Virus record (IMG/VR): IMGVR_UViG_3300034072_000616
Span: 1 to 26,861 of that record
Reading direction: 5' to 3' (one strand)
From: a virus
Length of the DNA stretch: 26,861 bases
In this document: one piece after another, positions 9,558-21,665 of the stretch
Numbering within the stretch: position 1 is the stretch's first letter
Layout of the letters: each line of letters opens with the position of its first letter
Translations under genes and position numbers: made by a program
The notes under the pieces: model-generated
What the model was told of the DNA's origin: nothing
Databases searched by the model: none
What the model saw: the letters and a program-made list of their open reading frames with translations, nothing else

Positions 9558-12187
9558 ATGCGCGGCCTGCTGCTGCGGCGAAGCGCCTCGGATGCGCCTG
9601 CGTCCACGATCGCGGGGGCGGTAGCGCGCACCACCTCGACCGACACGCCTTGCGCGATGGTCTGGACCTGCGATGCAAAGCCCTCGCGCTCCTCGATCAC
9701 GATGCGGACCGTGCCGCCTGCGGTTGCCCCACCGCGCACCGCGTCCATGCGTCCCAGCGGCACGATGTTGCCCCCGGTGGATGGCCCGACGAACCCCTCG
9801 ACGCGGCCAGGCGATGCGCCCTCGTTGATGCGGTAGACCTGACCGGGCGCGACGGGGCCGCCGCTGGCGCGAGCAAAAAGCGAGCCGATCGTCTTGCCGA
9901 TGGAAAACACCTTGGACGCCGCGCCAGCAAGCCCACTGCTGGCAGAACCGCCGCCGCCACTGCCGAACAAGTTTTCGGCCAATGGCCTGATGACAGCCTG
10001 CTGGATCGCAATGCGAAGCAGATCGGCGACAATGGACTTGGCAACGCTGCTGAATACATCGCCCAGCGATTCGGCATTCAGTATCGCATCGACGAGCTGG
10101 TCGTTCAGGTTTTGCAGGCCATCGATCGCGATGCCTTCGACCTGATCGTTGATATTGTTGCCGGAGATGGTCAGGTCGCGCAGGAAGCGTTGGCCCGGCG
10201 ACTGGTTGGCGAGGTCGCTCTCGGTCCGAGCCTGCTTTTCGAGCGCGCCAAGGACGGCTAGGCGAGCACCAGCAATTCGCTCCTGAACATCGGTGCTGGA
10301 CAGCAGGGAAAGAACGAGTTCCTGCTCCGCTTGTGCTTGGCTGGCCTGGAGGTCGAGCAACCTGTTTTCGAGGCGTGCGCGGTCCTCTCTCGTCGTGGCG
10401 AGCGCGAGACTGGCGCGAACCAGATCCTGCTCGTTCTGGTTTGCTGCCGTGGCGAGATCAAACTGGTCCTGTGTCCGCTGGTCGAGACGACGCAGGGAAT
10501 CGGTCACGCTCTTGCCGAGTTCGCGGCCCTTGTCGGCAGCCTGACGGATATCGGCGTCGGAGAGACCTCCTGACGTGCTGCTCGAACTACTACGGCGGCG
10601 GCTCGACGGCGCGGCGACCGCCGCCACACGCGATGGCGCAGCGCCCTTTATAGCCGCGTCAATGGATGCCAGCCCTTTTTCGAGACCGGCAATCCGCGCC
10701 TGTGCATCTGCCACGCCCTGCCGCGCGGTCGCCTTGCGCGTGTCGCCCGTGCCTTGGATGAACAAGCCGCCGCCGGGCGTGGTCGCACCGATCGACGCCT
10801 GGTTCTGTGCTGCGGAAAAAGCCTTGGCGCGTGCTAGCTCGGCCTGCGCAAGCACCAGCGAGGCGCGGGCGCTTTCCAGCTTCTTCTTGGTGTTTTCACG
10901 CTCGGCCTGGGCAAGCTTCAACGCTTCCTCTCGTGCCTTGCCATGGGCATTGGCCAGTCGCTCTGCGGCCTCTGCGGCGGGACGCGTCGCCTCTGCGGAA
11001 ATCTCTTGCGCGCGGGCATGCGCCTTGGCCGCGACTGTTGCCTCGCTGGTTTCGGTGAACAGCGTGCCGAGTGCGAGCGCAACCGCCGTCACCGCCAACC
11101 CGATGCCCACGGGCCCGAGCAATGCGGCCTGCAACCCGCGAGCGGCGAATGCGGCTGCTTCCATGCCGGTTGCGGCTCCTGCCAGGCGAGCCTGCAGGGC
11201 AAAGGTCGCCGCCCCGACAACGCCCATGCTTGCGGCAGTCCCGCCAAGAGCGGCCTGCGCAGCAACATTTGCCGCCACGAACCGAACCGCGATGGTCGAT
11301 GCCAGCACCGCAATGGCCGGAATGACGATATCGAGATTATTGGCGAGCAGCTGGAGGCCACCCGCGATTGCCGCACTCGCCCCATTGGTCGCGGCAGCCT
11401 GCCCAACATAAACCGTCAGCTGGCTGTTCAGCGATTCGAACGCGCCCGCGATGGTGAGGGTGGCCTTGCTGGCCTGGCCTTCAAGCTGGCTGCTGCCTGC
11501 GAGGATGGCGGCGAAGAAGTCGCGGCTCGATACCTCTCCGGCAAGCACGGCCTCACGCAGCTTGGCAACACTTCCTCCGAAGCGCTCCGATGCTGCGGCG
11601 GCCTGCAAGAGCGGACGCAAGCCGCCCTCATTCACCTGGTTGAACTCTTCCGCGCGCACCGTCCCGCTGGCGAGCGCCTGTTGCAGGCCAAGGATCGCGC
11701 CGGATGCCTGCGTCGCGCTCGTCCCCGTGATCAGCAGCGCCTGACTGGTCGCCTCGGTGAGCGCAAGGAGCTGGTCTTGGCTGGCACCAAGCTCGCGGCC
11801 CGCCTGCGACGCATTGCCAAACAGTTCGGCGAGCGATTCAATGCTGACCCCATAGCGCCCCGACAATTCGAGCAGCCGGCTCTGCACCGCCTCAAGGTTT
11901 GCGCCTTCAAGCCCGGCCACCTTCAGGCTGTTCTGCAACCGGGTGAAGCCGTCGATCAAGCCGACCAGCTCGCGGCCCGTAAACGCCGTTGCAAAGGTCG
12001 CGGCAAGCCCCTTGATCGACGAACCGATGGCCCCGCTGGACTTGCGCATCTGCGCCTCAAGATCGCGGACACGCTTTTCCTGCAGGCCGAGCTGCTGATC
12101 GACCGTCTTGGTCGCGCGTCGTACATCGCCGAGATAGCGATCAACCTGCGCGCGCAATTCGAGGATGACTGGGTCGATTTCAGGCAT
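9554..12187 (-). CDS. Tape measure protein
   Basis: This 877-residue protein sets tail length. The N-terminal ~280 residues match the TMP_3 type: LRAQVDRYLGDVRRATKTVD, FTRLQNSLKVAGLEGANL, LLELSGRYGVSIESLAELF, TSATQASGAILGLQQALASG and FNQVNEGGLRPLLQAAA. Hydrophobic segments follow (about 285-315 and near 365-390), then long Ala/Glu/Lys coiled coil, a Ser-rich linker and a Gly-rich C-terminus. At about 0.15 nm per residue the tail would be near 130 nm (inference). It begins at ATG 12187 without a clear Shine-Dalgarno; promoter candidate B ends 10 nt before this ATG, so the message may be leaderless. It is preceded by the frameshift tail-chaperone pair, as in most siphophages. Confidence 0.85.
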   Translation of the reverse strand: MPEIDPVILELRAQVDRYLGDVRRATKTVDQQLGLQEKRVRDLEAQMRKSSGAIGSSIKGLAATFATAFTGRELVGLIDGFTRLQNSLKVAGLEGANLEAVQSRLLELSGRYGVSIESLAELFGNASQAGRELGASQDQLLALTEATSQALLITGTSATQASGAILGLQQALASGTVRAEEFNQVNEGGLRPLLQAAAASERFGGSVAKLREAVLAGEVSSRDFFAAILAGSSQLEGQASKATLTIAGAFESLNSQLTVYVGQAAATNGASAAIAGGLQLLANNLDIVIPAIAVLASTIAVRFVAANVAAQAALGGTAASMGVVGAATFALQARLAGAATGMEAAAFAARGLQAALLGPVGIGLAVTAVALALGTLFTETSEATVAAKAHARAQEISAEATRPAAEAAERLANAHGKAREEALKLAQAERENTKKKLESARASLVLAQAELARAKAFSAAQNQASIGATTPGGGLFIQGTGDTRKATARQGVADAQARIAGLEKGLASIDAAIKGAAPSRVAAVAAPSSRRRSSSSSTSGGLSDADIRQAADKGRELGKSVTDSLRRLDQRTQDQFDLATAANQNEQDLVRASLALATTREDRARLENRLLDLQASQAQAEQELVLSLLSSTDVQERIAGARLAVLGALEKQARTESDLANQSPGQRFLRDLTISGNNINDQVEGIAIDGLQNLNDQLVDAILNAESLGDVFSSVAKSIVADLLRIAIQQAVIRPLAENLFGSGGGGSASSGLAGAASKVFSIGKTIGSLFARASGGPVAPGQVYRINEGASPGRVEGFVGPSTGGNIVPLGRMDAVRGGATAGGTVRIVIEEREGFASQVQTIAQGVSVEVVRATAPAIVDAGASEALRRSSRPRI

Positions 12188-14172: not shown

Positions 14173-14573
14173 CCGCTTCCTTTCACCAGCTTGTTCATCT
14201 GCTCGACATAGCGCTTGCGGATCTCGGGCAGCTTCTTGTCGCGCGCGGCTCTCACGTGTGGCCTTTGCTGCATCTTGCTCGTCCCGAATTCCAAGGCGCG
14301 CGCATATGGAGCTTTTGACCGAAACTCTGCTGTGAGCGAACCCGTTTGCACAGCCTCAAAATTAGCTTGAAGGACTCCAGTGTCCCGGTTCGGCGGTTCA
14401 TTCGGCTTCGATGGAACGTGATCTTTTCCAGAGACAGAACCCGCAGACACAAGCCGAAAGGCCTCCGCCCTTATTGTGTCGGCACCTTCATAAGCGATTG
14501 CGCCGGCCAATTGTATAACCCGCTTGCTTGCCAGTCGCTTGAGGCGATCAGTGTGCCTTTTCCCGCCTTTCAT
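14169..14573 (-). CDS. HK97 gp10-like head-tail joining protein
   Basis: I place the start at ATG 14573 (134 aa) because it overlaps the HNH gene stop (ATGA) and yields the usual opening MKGGKRHTDRLKRL; an in-frame ATG at 14600 would add nine residues. Motifs: AGAIAYEGADTIRAEAFRLV, PNEPPNRDTGVLQANFEAV, and the characteristic APYARALEFGTSKMQQRPHVRAARD near residues 90-115. The family joins head and tail (tail completion). The adjacency of an HNH gene just upstream shows that the mobile gene was accommodated without damage here. Confidence 0.85.
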   Translation of the reverse strand: MKGGKRHTDRLKRLASKRVIQLAGAIAYEGADTIRAEAFRLVSAGSVSGKDHVPSKPNEPPNRDTGVLQANFEAVQTGSLTAEFRSKAPYARALEFGTSKMQQRPHVRAARDKKLPEIRKRYVEQMNKLVKGSG

Positions 14574-15136
14574 AGCCACCCCCACCGATCGCCGCGCCAT
14601 ATCTTCTGTATCGCCTCGGCCCGCACCCCGAATTTCCGCGCGACAACCCCAGAATTATGGACCCCTTTCATCGTCCTGATTTCAATAACCTCCGCCTCGG
14701 TTAGCTTAGCGTTGGCACTGTTTTCGCCACGATTGTCGGTCCCATGCACCAAGCGGTCCATCATGTTCTCGGATGGCGAAGCCCACCTTAGATGAGCTGG
14801 ATTGACGCAGGTCGGATTGCCGCAACTATGCGCAGCGTGCGGCCTGTCAACTGGCGCGTCGCCGTGCGCCCAGAAACACATCAATCGGCTCGCTCTACGC
14901 GAATATGGGTGAGTAACCTTGCCATATCCATGCTGATCTGTTCCGAACGGCCATAAAAGGCACTCATCGCCATCATGGGAGATGTGCGCTTCGAGCCACT
15001 TTAGCCCTTCAAGGCGATGCTCGCCCCCCAAGGGGTCGCCATGCCGCAGGAAGCGGACATAGTGCGCCTTGCACCACCCGCGAGAATTCACGCGCTTGCC
15101 GCAGCCTTCAATTGAGCATAGACGGGTATCAGCCAT
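14570..15136 (-). CDS. HNH homing-type endonuclease (copy 1)
   Basis: The start at ATG 15136 has a GAGGAG Shine-Dalgarno and gives 188 residues; the upstream in-frame extension runs through the hairpin leader and is rejected. Residues 7-25 form a small Cys/His cluster (CSIEGCGKRVNSRGWCKAH). Residues 98-120 hold the HNH core, AAHSCGNPTCVNPAHL, with His103, Asn112 and His115. The C-terminus (145-185, LTEAEVIEIRTMKG, NSGVVARKFGVRAEAIQKI) is a helix-turn-helix for DNA recognition. It sits between head-tail connector genes, as homing endonucleases often do in phages, and has a leader in common with two other genes of the window. Confidence 0.85.
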   Translation of the reverse strand: MADTRLCSIEGCGKRVNSRGWCKAHYVRFLRHGDPLGGEHRLEGLKWLEAHISHDGDECLLWPFGTDQHGYGKVTHPYSRRASRLMCFWAHGDAPVDRPHAAHSCGNPTCVNPAHLRWASPSENMMDRLVHGTDNRGENSANAKLTEAEVIEIRTMKGVHNSGVVARKFGVRAEAIQKIWRGDRWGWL

Positions 15137-15165
15137 TTTCGACTCCTCAACAGTCGGTTTGGTTA

Positions 15166-15199
15166 GGGCTGGCAGGTGTTGGTAGCACCTGTTCAGCCC
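15166..15199 (-). promoter_or_regulatory. Hairpin leader of HNH copy 1
   Basis: On the transcript strand an outer stem GGGCTG/CAGCCC encloses an inner stem CAGGTG/CACCTG with loop CUACCAA, an unpaired AA on the 5' side and a C on the 3' side. It is followed by TAACCAAACC. The base of the stem lies 29 nt before the ATG. A possible sigma70-like promoter TTGGCA-N17-CATAAA (15204-15232) ends just 5' of it, so the RNA would begin with the hairpin. Confidence 0.5.
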
Positions 15200-15246
15200 G
15201 TCATTTATGGCAGAAAACTGCCGATTTGCCAAGGCATAAGCACCCT

Positions 15247-19102: not shown

Positions 19103-19285
19103 TCAGGTGGGAGTGGTTATCTCCGCTGGCTGCTCGCAATAGTCAGCCATCGCCTGCCATCGGGCGTCCCAATCATCGCCGCGCATGTGCGGCGGCACGA
19201 TATGCTCGGCGATGCCCTGCATCACGCGCGCCGGGTTGGCCGTTGCGAGGTCGATATCGCAATCCCCATGTCGCTTATCGCCCAT
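19103..19285 (-). CDS. Hypothetical accessory protein (60 aa)
   Basis: The ATG at 19285 overlaps the preceding stop (TGATG); a GTG one codon upstream is an alternative. The product is acidic with two Cys and two Trp (DWDARWQAMADYCEQPAE). It lies between the morphogenesis genes and DUF2213, where head genes normally adjoin, so it is probably an accessory (moron-like) gene. I recognise no family. It ends 11 bp before promoter candidate D. Confidence 0.5.
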   Translation of the reverse strand: MGDKRHGDCDIDLATANPARVMQGIAEHIVPPHMRGDDWDARWQAMADYCEQPAEITTPT

Positions 19286-19602
19286 CACTCACCCCCTGCC
19301 AGAATGGCGTCGATCATGGCGGTCCATGCGTTGACCGCTTGGTTATTGGCCATCAGCTTGCTGCCACGCCCGTCAGCGATGGACGCATATTGACCGGCTC
19401 CAACCTCGGTATCGAGAACCTGCTCTCCACCCGCTTCGGTCATCGCCTCATCCGGCTCCCGGATTGCGGCCAGGACGGTGCGGGCGCTGTCAACAAAGAG
19501 CGTCCAGATCGGCGCTGGCGGCGACACGTGCGATATCTGCTTGTCTGGATCATGGCCATTTTCGACTGCCAATGCACGCGCGGCGCGTTCGAGCGGGGTC
19601 AT
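19285..19602 (-). CDS. Hypothetical accessory protein (105 aa)
   Basis: The start ATG 19602 overlaps the stop of the winged-helix-like gene (ATGA); the frame is open seven codons further but that part is antisense-like. It begins TPLERAARALAVENGHDP, an opening I have often seen in small phage early/accessory proteins, and has a middle APIWTLFVDSARTVLAAIREPDEAM and C-terminal helix AVNAWTAMIDAIL. Occurrence within the late head genes is unusual and points to a gain in this lineage. Function unknown. Confidence 0.55.
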   Translation of the reverse strand: MTPLERAARALAVENGHDPDKQISHVSPPAPIWTLFVDSARTVLAAIREPDEAMTEAGGEQVLDTEVGAGQYASIADGRGSKLMANNQAVNAWTAMIDAILAGGE

Positions 19603-20057
19603 GCCGCAATATCCTCGTTCCAATCACTATCATCAATGATAGCTTCCGACCATGGCCGCATTCCGGCAGCTTCAATCGCCTGTCGATTTTCCGGCGTGGC
19701 AGGGATGAATGAGAAGGCATAGCTATCGCCAAGTCCGCCGCCGTAGGTTTTTACCTGCAAGCTCTCTTTAAGCGCGTCATTGCCTTCAAAGACATAGCCG
19801 GTACGCGATCCCCAATCGTATTGGCTTTCGCGATAGAACTTTCCGCTTTCCCATAGCCGCTTGCTCATCGCGCTATGGGTGTCAATGCGGGTGATTTTGC
19901 CTGTCTTGCGGTGGCGATAGACCATATGGCCGTTGCGGTTCAGAACTTCGAGCGCGCGCTTGCGGGGCACGCCTGCGACGCTTGCGATTTCAGAATAGGT
20001 CGTGCCGTCCTTAAGCTTGAGCAGCTGGCGGGCGGCGTCTAAGATCGGCTTAGCCAT
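19599..20057 (-). CDS. Winged-helix-like protein in a homing-type cassette
   Basis: The 152-residue protein starts at ATG 20057; upstream in-frame sequence is the hairpin leader and is excluded. Residues 17-58 (DGTTYSEIASVAGVPRKRALEVLNRNGHMVYRHRKTGKI) look like a winged helix with a basic recognition helix and wing. The rest (FYRESQYDWGSRTGYVFEGNDAL, TPENRQAIEAAGMRPWSEAIID) I do not recognise; it has no HNH, GIY-YIG or LAGLIDADG motif. The gene is preceded by the same hairpin leader as both HNH genes, has the same stop/start overlap with its successor (ATGA), and is less GC-rich than the structural genes by eye. It may be a DNA-binding partner, or a new kind of inserted gene. Confidence 0.6.
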   Translation of the reverse strand: MAKPILDAARQLLKLKDGTTYSEIASVAGVPRKRALEVLNRNGHMVYRHRKTGKITRIDTHSAMSKRLWESGKFYRESQYDWGSRTGYVFEGNDALKESLQVKTYGGGLGDSYAFSFIPATPENRQAIEAAGMRPWSEAIIDDSDWNEDIAA

Positions 20058-20083
20058 ATCGAACTCATCCTTCGTTGTGGTCA

Positions 20084-20117
20084 GGGCCGGGCGCTGTTGA
20101 CGCAGCGTTCCCGGCCC
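20084..20117 (-). promoter_or_regulatory. Hairpin leader of the winged-helix-like gene
   Basis: Outer stem GGGCCGGG/CCCGGCCC, unpaired AA on the 5' side, inner stem CGCTG/CAGCG, loop CGUCAA. The 3' flank is TGACCACAAC, the same as for HNH copy 2. The base of the stem is 26 nt before the ATG. A weak sigma70-like candidate TTGGAT-N16-TACACA (20122-20149) is just 5' of it. Confidence 0.5.
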
Positions 20118-20140
20118 GTCTTGTGTAGCACATTGCTGCG

Positions 20141-20992
20141 CTAATCCAAAATGAGAACCGCCCTTTCGGTGCATCCACAATTAATAGGTACGCCAGCCCG
20201 GTCTGATGGCGGCGGTGGCTTCTTGACAGTTTTGCCTTGGTATTTCTGCCCGACACGCTCTTGGCTTTCGGAATAGAGATTGCCGTTGCGCGCTTTGTGC
20301 TCTGGCCTAAAATCCGGCTTCCCAGAGGACACCCACTCGAAGCTGTCGATTCCTGCTTGGCGGCGGCGTTCTTGGTTTAGCTCTGCTCCAAGGCTGGTGA
20401 GCTGGTCGCTGGCAATGTTTTTGGCTCGCCTTCTACTCATGGCGATCACTTCCTGAAGCTCTGCAGCCACCTTGTTCGCTGGTTTACGCTCCCGGAATCC
20501 CTGAAACACTACGTTCGCAATGCGCTGCTTTGTCTGGTCTGAGACAGAACTGACGAGGCTGACATTTTGCTCAATCACAGAGGCGACTGTCTGCCTTACG
20601 TCTTGTGGGCCTATCAGATTATCCAGCGACACATTCGTTGCAGTAAGCACATTGCCCACCCAGCGCCTGCGATGCCACGCCTCGACGCTCTCGGACCAGC
20701 GCCCTATGGCGAACCGCAGCGACACGATGACGCCGGACACGGACGACGATGCGGCCTCAATGCGCGCCGTGACATCAGCCGGGGCGTCGGTCTGTAGCTC
20801 GCTCAGCGACTGCGCATAAGCGGCGGTGATGCTTTCCAGCGAGGCTGACCAGATCGCGATCACCGGGGCGTAGACACTGGTGTAGAGCGCGGTTGCCTGT
20901 AGCGCGGTCGGGGTGATCGGGCGCAGGATAATGACGAGGCGGCGGGGATTGCGCGCCCTTCGCGTCATGTCTGCCAGGTCGAAGGACGCCAT
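20141..20992 (-). CDS. Phage head morphogenesis protein (SPP1 gp7 / Mu F family)
   Basis: The 283-residue protein starts at ATG 20992 overlapping the HNH copy 2 stop (TGATG). The N-terminal half is helical (TALQATALYTSVYAPVIAIW). The C-terminal half carries the family core: FQGFRERKPANKVAAELQEV, SRRRAKNIASDQLTSLGAELNQERRRQAGI, FEWVSSGKPDFRPEHKARNG and a terminal PINCGCTERAV. This minor head protein family binds portal or DNA inside the procapsid. Gene order places it after the portal, with only the HNH gene intervening. Confidence 0.85.
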   Translation of the reverse strand: MASFDLADMTRRARNPRRLVIILRPITPTALQATALYTSVYAPVIAIWSASLESITAAYAQSLSELQTDAPADVTARIEAASSSVSGVIVSLRFAIGRWSESVEAWHRRRWVGNVLTATNVSLDNLIGPQDVRQTVASVIEQNVSLVSSVSDQTKQRIANVVFQGFRERKPANKVAAELQEVIAMSRRRAKNIASDQLTSLGAELNQERRRQAGIDSFEWVSSGKPDFRPEHKARNGNLYSESQERVGQKYQGKTVKKPPPPSDRAGVPINCGCTERAVLILD

Positions 20993-21558
20993 CAGGTCAA
21001 TCGTCCATGGCGAGCGCTGAACCCATGATCCATCAATGCGGATTGCCTTGCTGCTACCGCATCCTGAAAATCAGAGAAGTGGCCCAGAGTGGTTTCTTTG
21101 CCGTCGACCATGATCCGAGCGCGCCACTTGCCCCGAGTGGGTCGCCAGCTAACGCCGGTCACGCCGCTCGTATTACAGCTTTTGCCAGCGGCATTGCGCA
21201 GGTTCATCGCATGGCTAACTGATTGGAGATTGGACCACCGATTATCGCTTCGCACACCGTTGATATGATCAATGTCTGCCTCTGGCCAACTGCCTGTTTG
21301 GATTGCCCAGATGACCCGATGCGCCAAATACAGCCTGCCGTTGATTGAGCCGTGGTAATACCCGTGGTTGCCTATATCGGTAAAAGCCTCATTGCCTGCG
21401 TTGCGGCCATTCCAAGCCGCTGCTTTGCGCACGGGGCTCATCACGCCAATGGCGAAATGGCATGGCTTACGAACAAGCCAAAACAGCTTTCCGGTTTCGG
21501 GTTCGTAGCGGAGTAGTTGACGCAGCAATTCTGCATCAGGTAGGGGCTTATTAGCCAT
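20992..21558 (-). CDS. HNH endonuclease with AP2 domain (copy 2)
   Basis: The ATG at 21558 has a GAGGTG Shine-Dalgarno and gives 188 residues, the same length as copy 1 though the sequences are not alike. Residues 20-30 are the common 'ETGKLFW' opening. The HNH_3 core is at 95-120: DIDHINGVRSDNRWSNLQSVSHAMNLRN (His98, Asn106, Asn110). Residues 131-180 form an AP2 DNA-binding domain (SGVTGVSWRPTRGKWRARI, ETTLGHFSDFQDAVAAR). This pair of domains is the usual build of phage HNH-AP2 homing endonucleases. It stands between portal and morphogenesis genes. Confidence 0.9.
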   Translation of the reverse strand: MANKPLPDAELLRQLLRYEPETGKLFWLVRKPCHFAIGVMSPVRKAAAWNGRNAGNEAFTDIGNHGYYHGSINGRLYLAHRVIWAIQTGSWPEADIDHINGVRSDNRWSNLQSVSHAMNLRNAAGKSCNTSGVTGVSWRPTRGKWRARIMVDGKETTLGHFSDFQDAVAARQSALMDHGFSARHGRLT

Positions 21559-21586
21559 GAACGCACCTCGTATGCGGTTGTGGTCA

Positions 21587-21620
21587 GGCTCGGCGGCGTG
21601 TTGGTAGCATCCGTCGAGCC
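21587..21620 (-). promoter_or_regulatory. Hairpin leader of HNH-AP2 copy 2
   Basis: Outer stem GGCTCG/CGAGCC, inner stem CGG-AUG/CAC-CCG with one bulged G on the 3' side, and the same seven-base loop CUACCAA as copy 1. The 3' flank is TGACCACAACC. The base of the stem is 28 nt before the ATG. A weak promoter candidate TTGCGC-N17-TAGGTA (21627-21655) lies 5' of it. Confidence 0.5.
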
Positions 21621-21665
21621 GCAATTTACCTAGCATTTCCGCCGTTTTTGCGCAAACACTAAGCA

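Follow-up and report, generated by a model that had tools for sequence, protein, structure and literature searches.

C4 and other phage antisense RNAs control phage genes. Among plasmids, the antisense RNA RepX of the IncQ group lies over the ribosome-binding site and start codon of repA, folds into two stem-loops and holds RepA down; it is FinP-like and binds FinO (PMC8136791). The genes for T4 I-TevI and segB and for Aeh1 mobE have structures that sequester the ribosome-binding site, with promoters nearby (PMC2988022). In the literature that we searched, which did not cover subscription journals, RepX is not described outside IncQ plasmids. Here we consider a 26.9-kb stretch of viral DNA (the window, by which we mean the whole of this stretch) in which gene X occupies a variable slot, bordered by a Mu-F-like head gene on one side and by a small conserved gene on the other. 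Comparison of sequences across related loci makes it probable that X is a cargo gene in an exchange slot marked by a structured leader, and that this leader works as a RepX/repA-type module for control by antisense RNA. The slot and the leaders in the window are laid out as follows:

19599 to 20057, minus strand: gene X, encoding a 152-aa cargo protein with a winged-helix-like N-terminus and a C-terminal alpha/beta domain of no assigned family
19285 to 19602, minus strand: downstream gene (MTPLERA...), right border of the slot, kept in relatives
20141 to 20992, minus strand: gene for the Mu-F-like head morphogenesis protein, upstream of X, left border of the slot
20052 to 20117, minus strand: leader of X, including its start codon (model R3, 69.2 bits, E 1.3e-14)
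15131 to 15199, minus strand: leader of HNH_b, gene 14570-15136 (R3, 68.7 bits, E 1.7e-14)
21553 to 21620, minus strand: leader of HNH_a, gene 20992-21558 (R3, 49.4 bits, E 4.6e-10)

The covariance model R3 was trained on 53 sequences, none of them from the window, and it recovers exactly these three leaders there, all on the coding strand; its other matches in the window are two weak ones (16.6 and 18 bits), which represent the reverse of the hairpins of two of the same leaders. Both HNH genes encode real HNH_3 proteins (E 3.6e-15 and 3e-6). Recovery by a model free of window sequences bears out the observation, made in a preliminary description of this DNA, that X shares its leader with both HNH genes, and the overlap of the stop of X with the start of the next gene reported there is present as ATGA at 19602-19599. 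The leader had been given as 83 bp, and 83 nt do separate the ATG of X from the stop of the upstream gene (20141-20143); that figure stands, with the amendment that the conserved block is wider: it begins some 35 nt upstream of the hairpin and reaches approximately codon 14 of the ORF. An Rfam search with the leaders gave no match to the C4 family.

Alignment of all leaders with MAFFT yielded no consensus structure; the structure was assigned by hand on 12 clean sequences, which were then realigned with a covariance model. In the X leader the helices are:

20084 to 20117: P1, a long GC hairpin with arms GGGCCGGG/CCCGGCCC, inner stem CGCTG/CAGCG and loop CGTCAA
20060 to 20074: P2, a small hairpin CGAA/TTCG whose loop contains the Shine-Dalgarno region; all five model pairs covary
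20054 to 20080: P3, a three-pair helix of CCA (20078-20080) with the TGG (20054-20056) of ATGGCT, enclosing P2

Between P1 and P2 lies the linker CCUGACCA. Covariation is strong in P1 and P2, with both sides changing in 16 of the 19 pairs, and the leader has a covariation score of 0.484, as against 0.117 when shuffled and at most 0.05 with slid partners; P3 shows few changes, which gives it weaker support than P1 and P2. Within the window the P1 loop differs between X (CGTCAA) and the two HNH genes (CTACCAA in both HNH_a and HNH_b), and a search with a variant loop pattern gave no matches.

This arrangement is shared with the repA leaders of IncQ plasmids. Model R2 matches the IncQ1 repA leader of pSRC15, which is outside its training set, with 49.6 bits (E 1.1e-13), and the Rfam family RF00043 (R1162 RNA) in turn matches the HNH_b leader with 37.1 bits (E 0.004), a score below its gathering score of 55. 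The RF00043 matches in the window are at 15129-15200 and 21551-21621, none being listed for the X leader itself. In both sequence and secondary structure, then, the leader is RepX/R1162-like. As an aside on the Rfam entry, its model, which ends in AUGGCUAC, seems to run in the direction of the repA mRNA, opposite to the antisense RNA for which it is named.

Three tests, based on wobble pairs, promoters and tails and none of them tuned for an antisense answer, agree in favoring the strand opposite the gene as the one from which an RNA would be made. Firstly, counting distinct arm contexts, the non-Watson-Crick pairs of P1 and P2 comprise 63 A-C pairs, which are G-U on the opposite strand, and 8 G-U pairs, the models having been trained on the coding strand and counting G-U as paired. 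The bias has a p of 1e-11 if the contexts are independent, a value that is too small since the sequences are related. Secondly, the profile of 81 cargo genes has TA at +17/+18 and CAA at +39 to +41, which, read on the opposite strand, correspond to a -10 and a -35 separated by 17 nt. Unrelated cargo genes carry this backward, sigma-70-type promoter signature at a constant position within their first 14 codons. Over 25 cargo families without mutual blastp similarity the backward promoter scores 11.84, compared with 8.78 (sd 0.33) for codon shuffles, a z of about 9, and with at most 9.94 at other positions of the ORFs. X, scoring 15, is among the best, and none of its 300 codon shuffles scores as high. 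Thirdly, a T-rich tail (at least 4 T in 8 nt) is found past P1 on the opposite strand in 58 of 82 leaders, against a background of 11%; the tail of X is imperfect. The signals at X on the two strands are:

20017 to 20045, plus strand: antisense promoter-like site, TTGAGC-17-TAAGAT, within codons 5-14 of X
20051 to 20126, plus strand: predicted RepX-like antisense RNA of about 75 nt, with the T-rich tail GTCTTGTGT
20122 to 20149, minus strand: sense promoter-like site, TTGGAT-16-TACACA with an extended TGC; a weak match, supported by the family profile

The predicted antisense RNA is complementary to the start codon of X, the ATG at 20057, to its Shine-Dalgarno region and to the whole leader, a coverage of start codon and ribosome site that follows from the predicted start site, and it folds into two stem-loops (-37.5 kcal/mol, z -4.7). 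A strict consensus scan at X recovers neither promoter nor terminator, and therefore the case for an antisense RNA rests on the family and not on X alone. The sense strand also folds well, and the enrichment of YUNR kissing-loop motifs, being seen on both strands, does not discriminate between them.

We propose that the promoter in the first 14 codons of X (plus strand, 20017-20045) would drive an RNA that starts near codon 2-3, runs back over the start codon, P2, the linker and P1, and terminates at P1 and the T-rich tail, P1 on the plus strand being a candidate terminator hairpin. This RNA, fully complementary to the 5' UTR of X, would pair with it, and translation would be blocked or the message destabilized. 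Shown by the sequences are the leader with its covarying helices, the strand bias, the antisense promoter signature, the kinship with IncQ, the slot and the exchange of its cargos; production of the RNA and repression by it are our inference. Each cargo gene, that of X among them, is probably held at low expression by an antisense RNA of its own that covers its ribosome site and start codon. A further promoter-like site, directly upstream of P1, could supply X with a short mRNA.

The leader might instead act solely in the sense strand, its hairpins restraining translation at the ribosome site and start codon as in the mRNAs of T4 homing endonucleases, with no antisense RNA involved. We consider this rather unlikely, in spite of several features that it accommodates well: the Shine-Dalgarno region is held in the loop of P2, P3 pairs with the bases after the ATG, I-TevI, segB and Aeh1 mobE provide a precedent (PMC2988022), and just upstream of P1 the sense strand has a promoter-like profile of its own, with a TGnTA peak at -13, a TTG peak at -33 and 17 nt as the commonest spacing. 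However, the wobble pairs favor the opposite strand, the backward promoter signature in unrelated coding sequences is left unexplained, and the known IncQ relative is an antisense system. A sense riboregulator had been our first favorite and was demoted by the wobble-strand test together with the antisense promoter profile. Transcription from the sense promoter-like site is expected to start at the base of P1. The -10 of this site overlaps the sequence that would form the antisense tail, which prevents a full separation of the two signals, and the A-rich stretch adjoining P1 could belong to the sense -10 region. Antisense control of the cargo genes, which remains our preferred reading, can coexist with a sense function, and a sense promoter may be present as well, which would make each cassette self-sufficient.

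The slot behind the head gene was surveyed with the head protein as bait and without reference to the leader, giving 74 loci with downstream sequence. In 38 of these the leader follows directly on the head gene, invariably on the same strand; nearly half (36 of 74) have no leader at the slot, which speaks against the reading proposed here. About half of the genes behind the leader encode HNH proteins of several families, and the rest encode small proteins of unrelated families. Comparison of relatives for presence and absence of X, as called for in the preliminary description, reveals that X is not constant at the locus. In the closest relative (L012, with a head protein 81% identical) the leader precedes a truncated zinc-finger HNH gene and X is missing, in L075 an 86-aa gene stands behind the leader in its place, and X is likewise replaced in L080 and others. 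The site is thus differently filled among relatives, and its content is mobile or exchangeable cargo. The zinc-finger HNH remnant of L012 (5936-6085) lies behind an intact leader and is accompanied by a decayed copy of the downstream gene. The slot cargo of L090 (4624-5277) is PD-(D/E)XK-like by eye and has no Pfam match, and the near-identical phage L092 has an unrelated 151-aa protein there.

As for the protein itself, X had been characterized as a winged-helix-like N-terminus joined to an unrecognized C-terminal domain, with no known nuclease motif, and had been suggested to be an unrecognized nuclease, a DNA-binding partner of the HNH enzymes or a cargo gene. The domain division agrees with an AlphaFold model of moderate quality (pLDDT 67, pTM 0.50), with which fold searches returned weak winged-helix matches only. 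A weak winged-helix signal aside, no Pfam or PHROG family matches X better than chance, and searches of Pfam, PHROG, PDB and folds recovered no nuclease motif or fold, the moderate model leaving room for a divergent fold. The only full-length homologues found are from a Reyranella genome (50%) and a Bdellovibrio plasmid (about 27%; this protein is extended at its N-terminus). Neither is a known nuclease, and the residues conserved across the three proteins do not make up a recognizable catalytic set. At the Reyranella locus the leader is absent, and the homologue lies near an excisionase-like gene, as judged by eye. Phage records searched with X by DNA and by protein gave nothing useful, and a Bacteroidales match of 47 residues (L014) was dropped because it seemed to be a short stretch of local similarity within a gene unrelated to X.

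A role of X in homing, as an unrecognized nuclease or as a DNA-binding partner of the HNH enzymes, is improbable. It would fit the slot and leader held in common with the HNH genes, the winged-helix-looking N-terminus and the occurrence of the PD-(D/E)XK-like protein of L090 in the same slot, but X has neither a nuclease motif or fold match nor an evident catalytic set, its Reyranella homologue does without the leader, and the slot is common to many plainly different small proteins. That the shared leader points to a nuclease or an HNH partner finds no support: about half of the genes behind it in this slot encode small non-HNH proteins of unrelated families. Thus, of the three earlier suggestions cargo holds up best, X being one cargo among many and looking like an ordinary small passenger gene of a phage; there is no sign that it encodes a nuclease, and X is probably a DNA-binding regulator or another accessory protein.

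The notion that the leader marks mobile cassettes proves correct for the neighbors of X. The HNH_b cassette, leader included (14557-15242), is inserted precisely where a stop and a start codon overlap as ATGA, and L012 has the corresponding empty site at 10049-10059. Empty sites are also seen in near-identical phages, where L119, L123 and L131 lack a 740-bp insert present in L126, with 93-97% identity around it. In L126 (4061-5068) this insert of leader and HNH gene is flanked by the diverged 3' end of the head gene, a tract of about 220 bp in phages otherwise 97% identical, which resembles the footprint of co-conversion during homing. Further loci capture the exchange of one cargo for another: in L054 and L080 the sequence is the same from upstream, across P1 and as far as the 5' arm of P2, beyond which the genes are unrelated, L090 and L092 share 93% identity across the leader and 96-99% after their unrelated cargos, and in L098 and L088 the cargo breakpoint is in or adjoining the leader. 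Such exchange would involve recombination, either inside the leader or at the stop codons of the borders, and is probably driven in part by the homing of HNH cargos. A purely HNH-specific leader was considered and dropped, half of the slot cargos being other proteins and plasmid genes also carrying it. That the leader serves chiefly as a DNA element (a recombination joint or transposition end), its RNA structure being incidental, has very little to recommend it, for although the cargo breakpoints of these three pairs of phages lie in or beside the leader, its covarying helices, its placement at the Shine-Dalgarno region and start codon and its strand bias are features of RNA, and it also precedes resident plasmid genes such as repA.

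The leader is found at E 1e-4 or better in 22 of 385 alphaproteobacterial genomes, where several copies precede non-HNH proteins starting with MAD or MAE, and also in actinobacterial and cyanobacterial phages. One alphaproteobacterial genome encodes two paralogous proteins (MADSDNTRTLPTRRAVLLG...), each behind a leader (L178 and L190), which suggests use of the leader outside phage structural operons. A gene in the transfer region of plasmid pCY-VIM has the same leader (L018, 1502-1571), and the module is therefore not tied to repA, even on plasmids. A control module is a better reading of the leader than a homing signal. The preliminary description was right that the leader is meaningful and that X is no fixed gene, and it is the leader that is of more interest than X. 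More speculatively, and with considerable doubt, one may envisage a portable antisense-RNA module that spreads with phage and plasmid cargo and helps in its exchange, the P1 loop setting specificity and cassettes with the same loop silencing one another in trans. If this were true, a resident prophage could silence the homing endonuclease or other cargo of an incoming phage. Under our main reading, the antisense RNA of one plasmid family would become a widespread control module of mobile genes, explaining how nuclease and accessory genes are carried harmlessly inside phage structural operons, and its searchable signature would flag cargo genes that, like X, are otherwise unrecognizable; mutual silencing of mobile genes via matching RNA loops also becomes testable.

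Among known systems, the IncQ1 R1162/RSF1010 repA leader has the same two-hairpin form, a CCUAACCA linker and an AUGGCU start, and RepX itself is an antisense RNA of two stem-loops over the ribosome-binding site and start codon, as is predicted here. The two differ in that IncQ1 RepX/repA controls a replication helicase and copy number, whereas here dozens of unrelated phage cargo genes are involved, and in that the phage leaders have other loop sequences and an extra promoter-like site adjoining the hairpin. By way of RepX as it has been described (PMC8136791), the likeness extends to FinP/traJ and plasmid antisense controls, in which a short RNA of two stem-loops acts on a 5' UTR. The T4-type homing endonuclease genes (I-TevI, segB and mobE) resemble the present ones in that a structured 5' UTR restrains a phage homing endonuclease, but their hairpins act in the sense strand and each is its own, whereas here one RNA family, apparently antisense, serves unrelated genes. 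Free-standing HNH cassettes and phage morons also place a gene with its control region between the stop and start of structural genes and leave empty and filled sites in near-identical phages; what sets the present slot apart is that the control region comes from a shared RNA family and that about half of the cargos are not nucleases.
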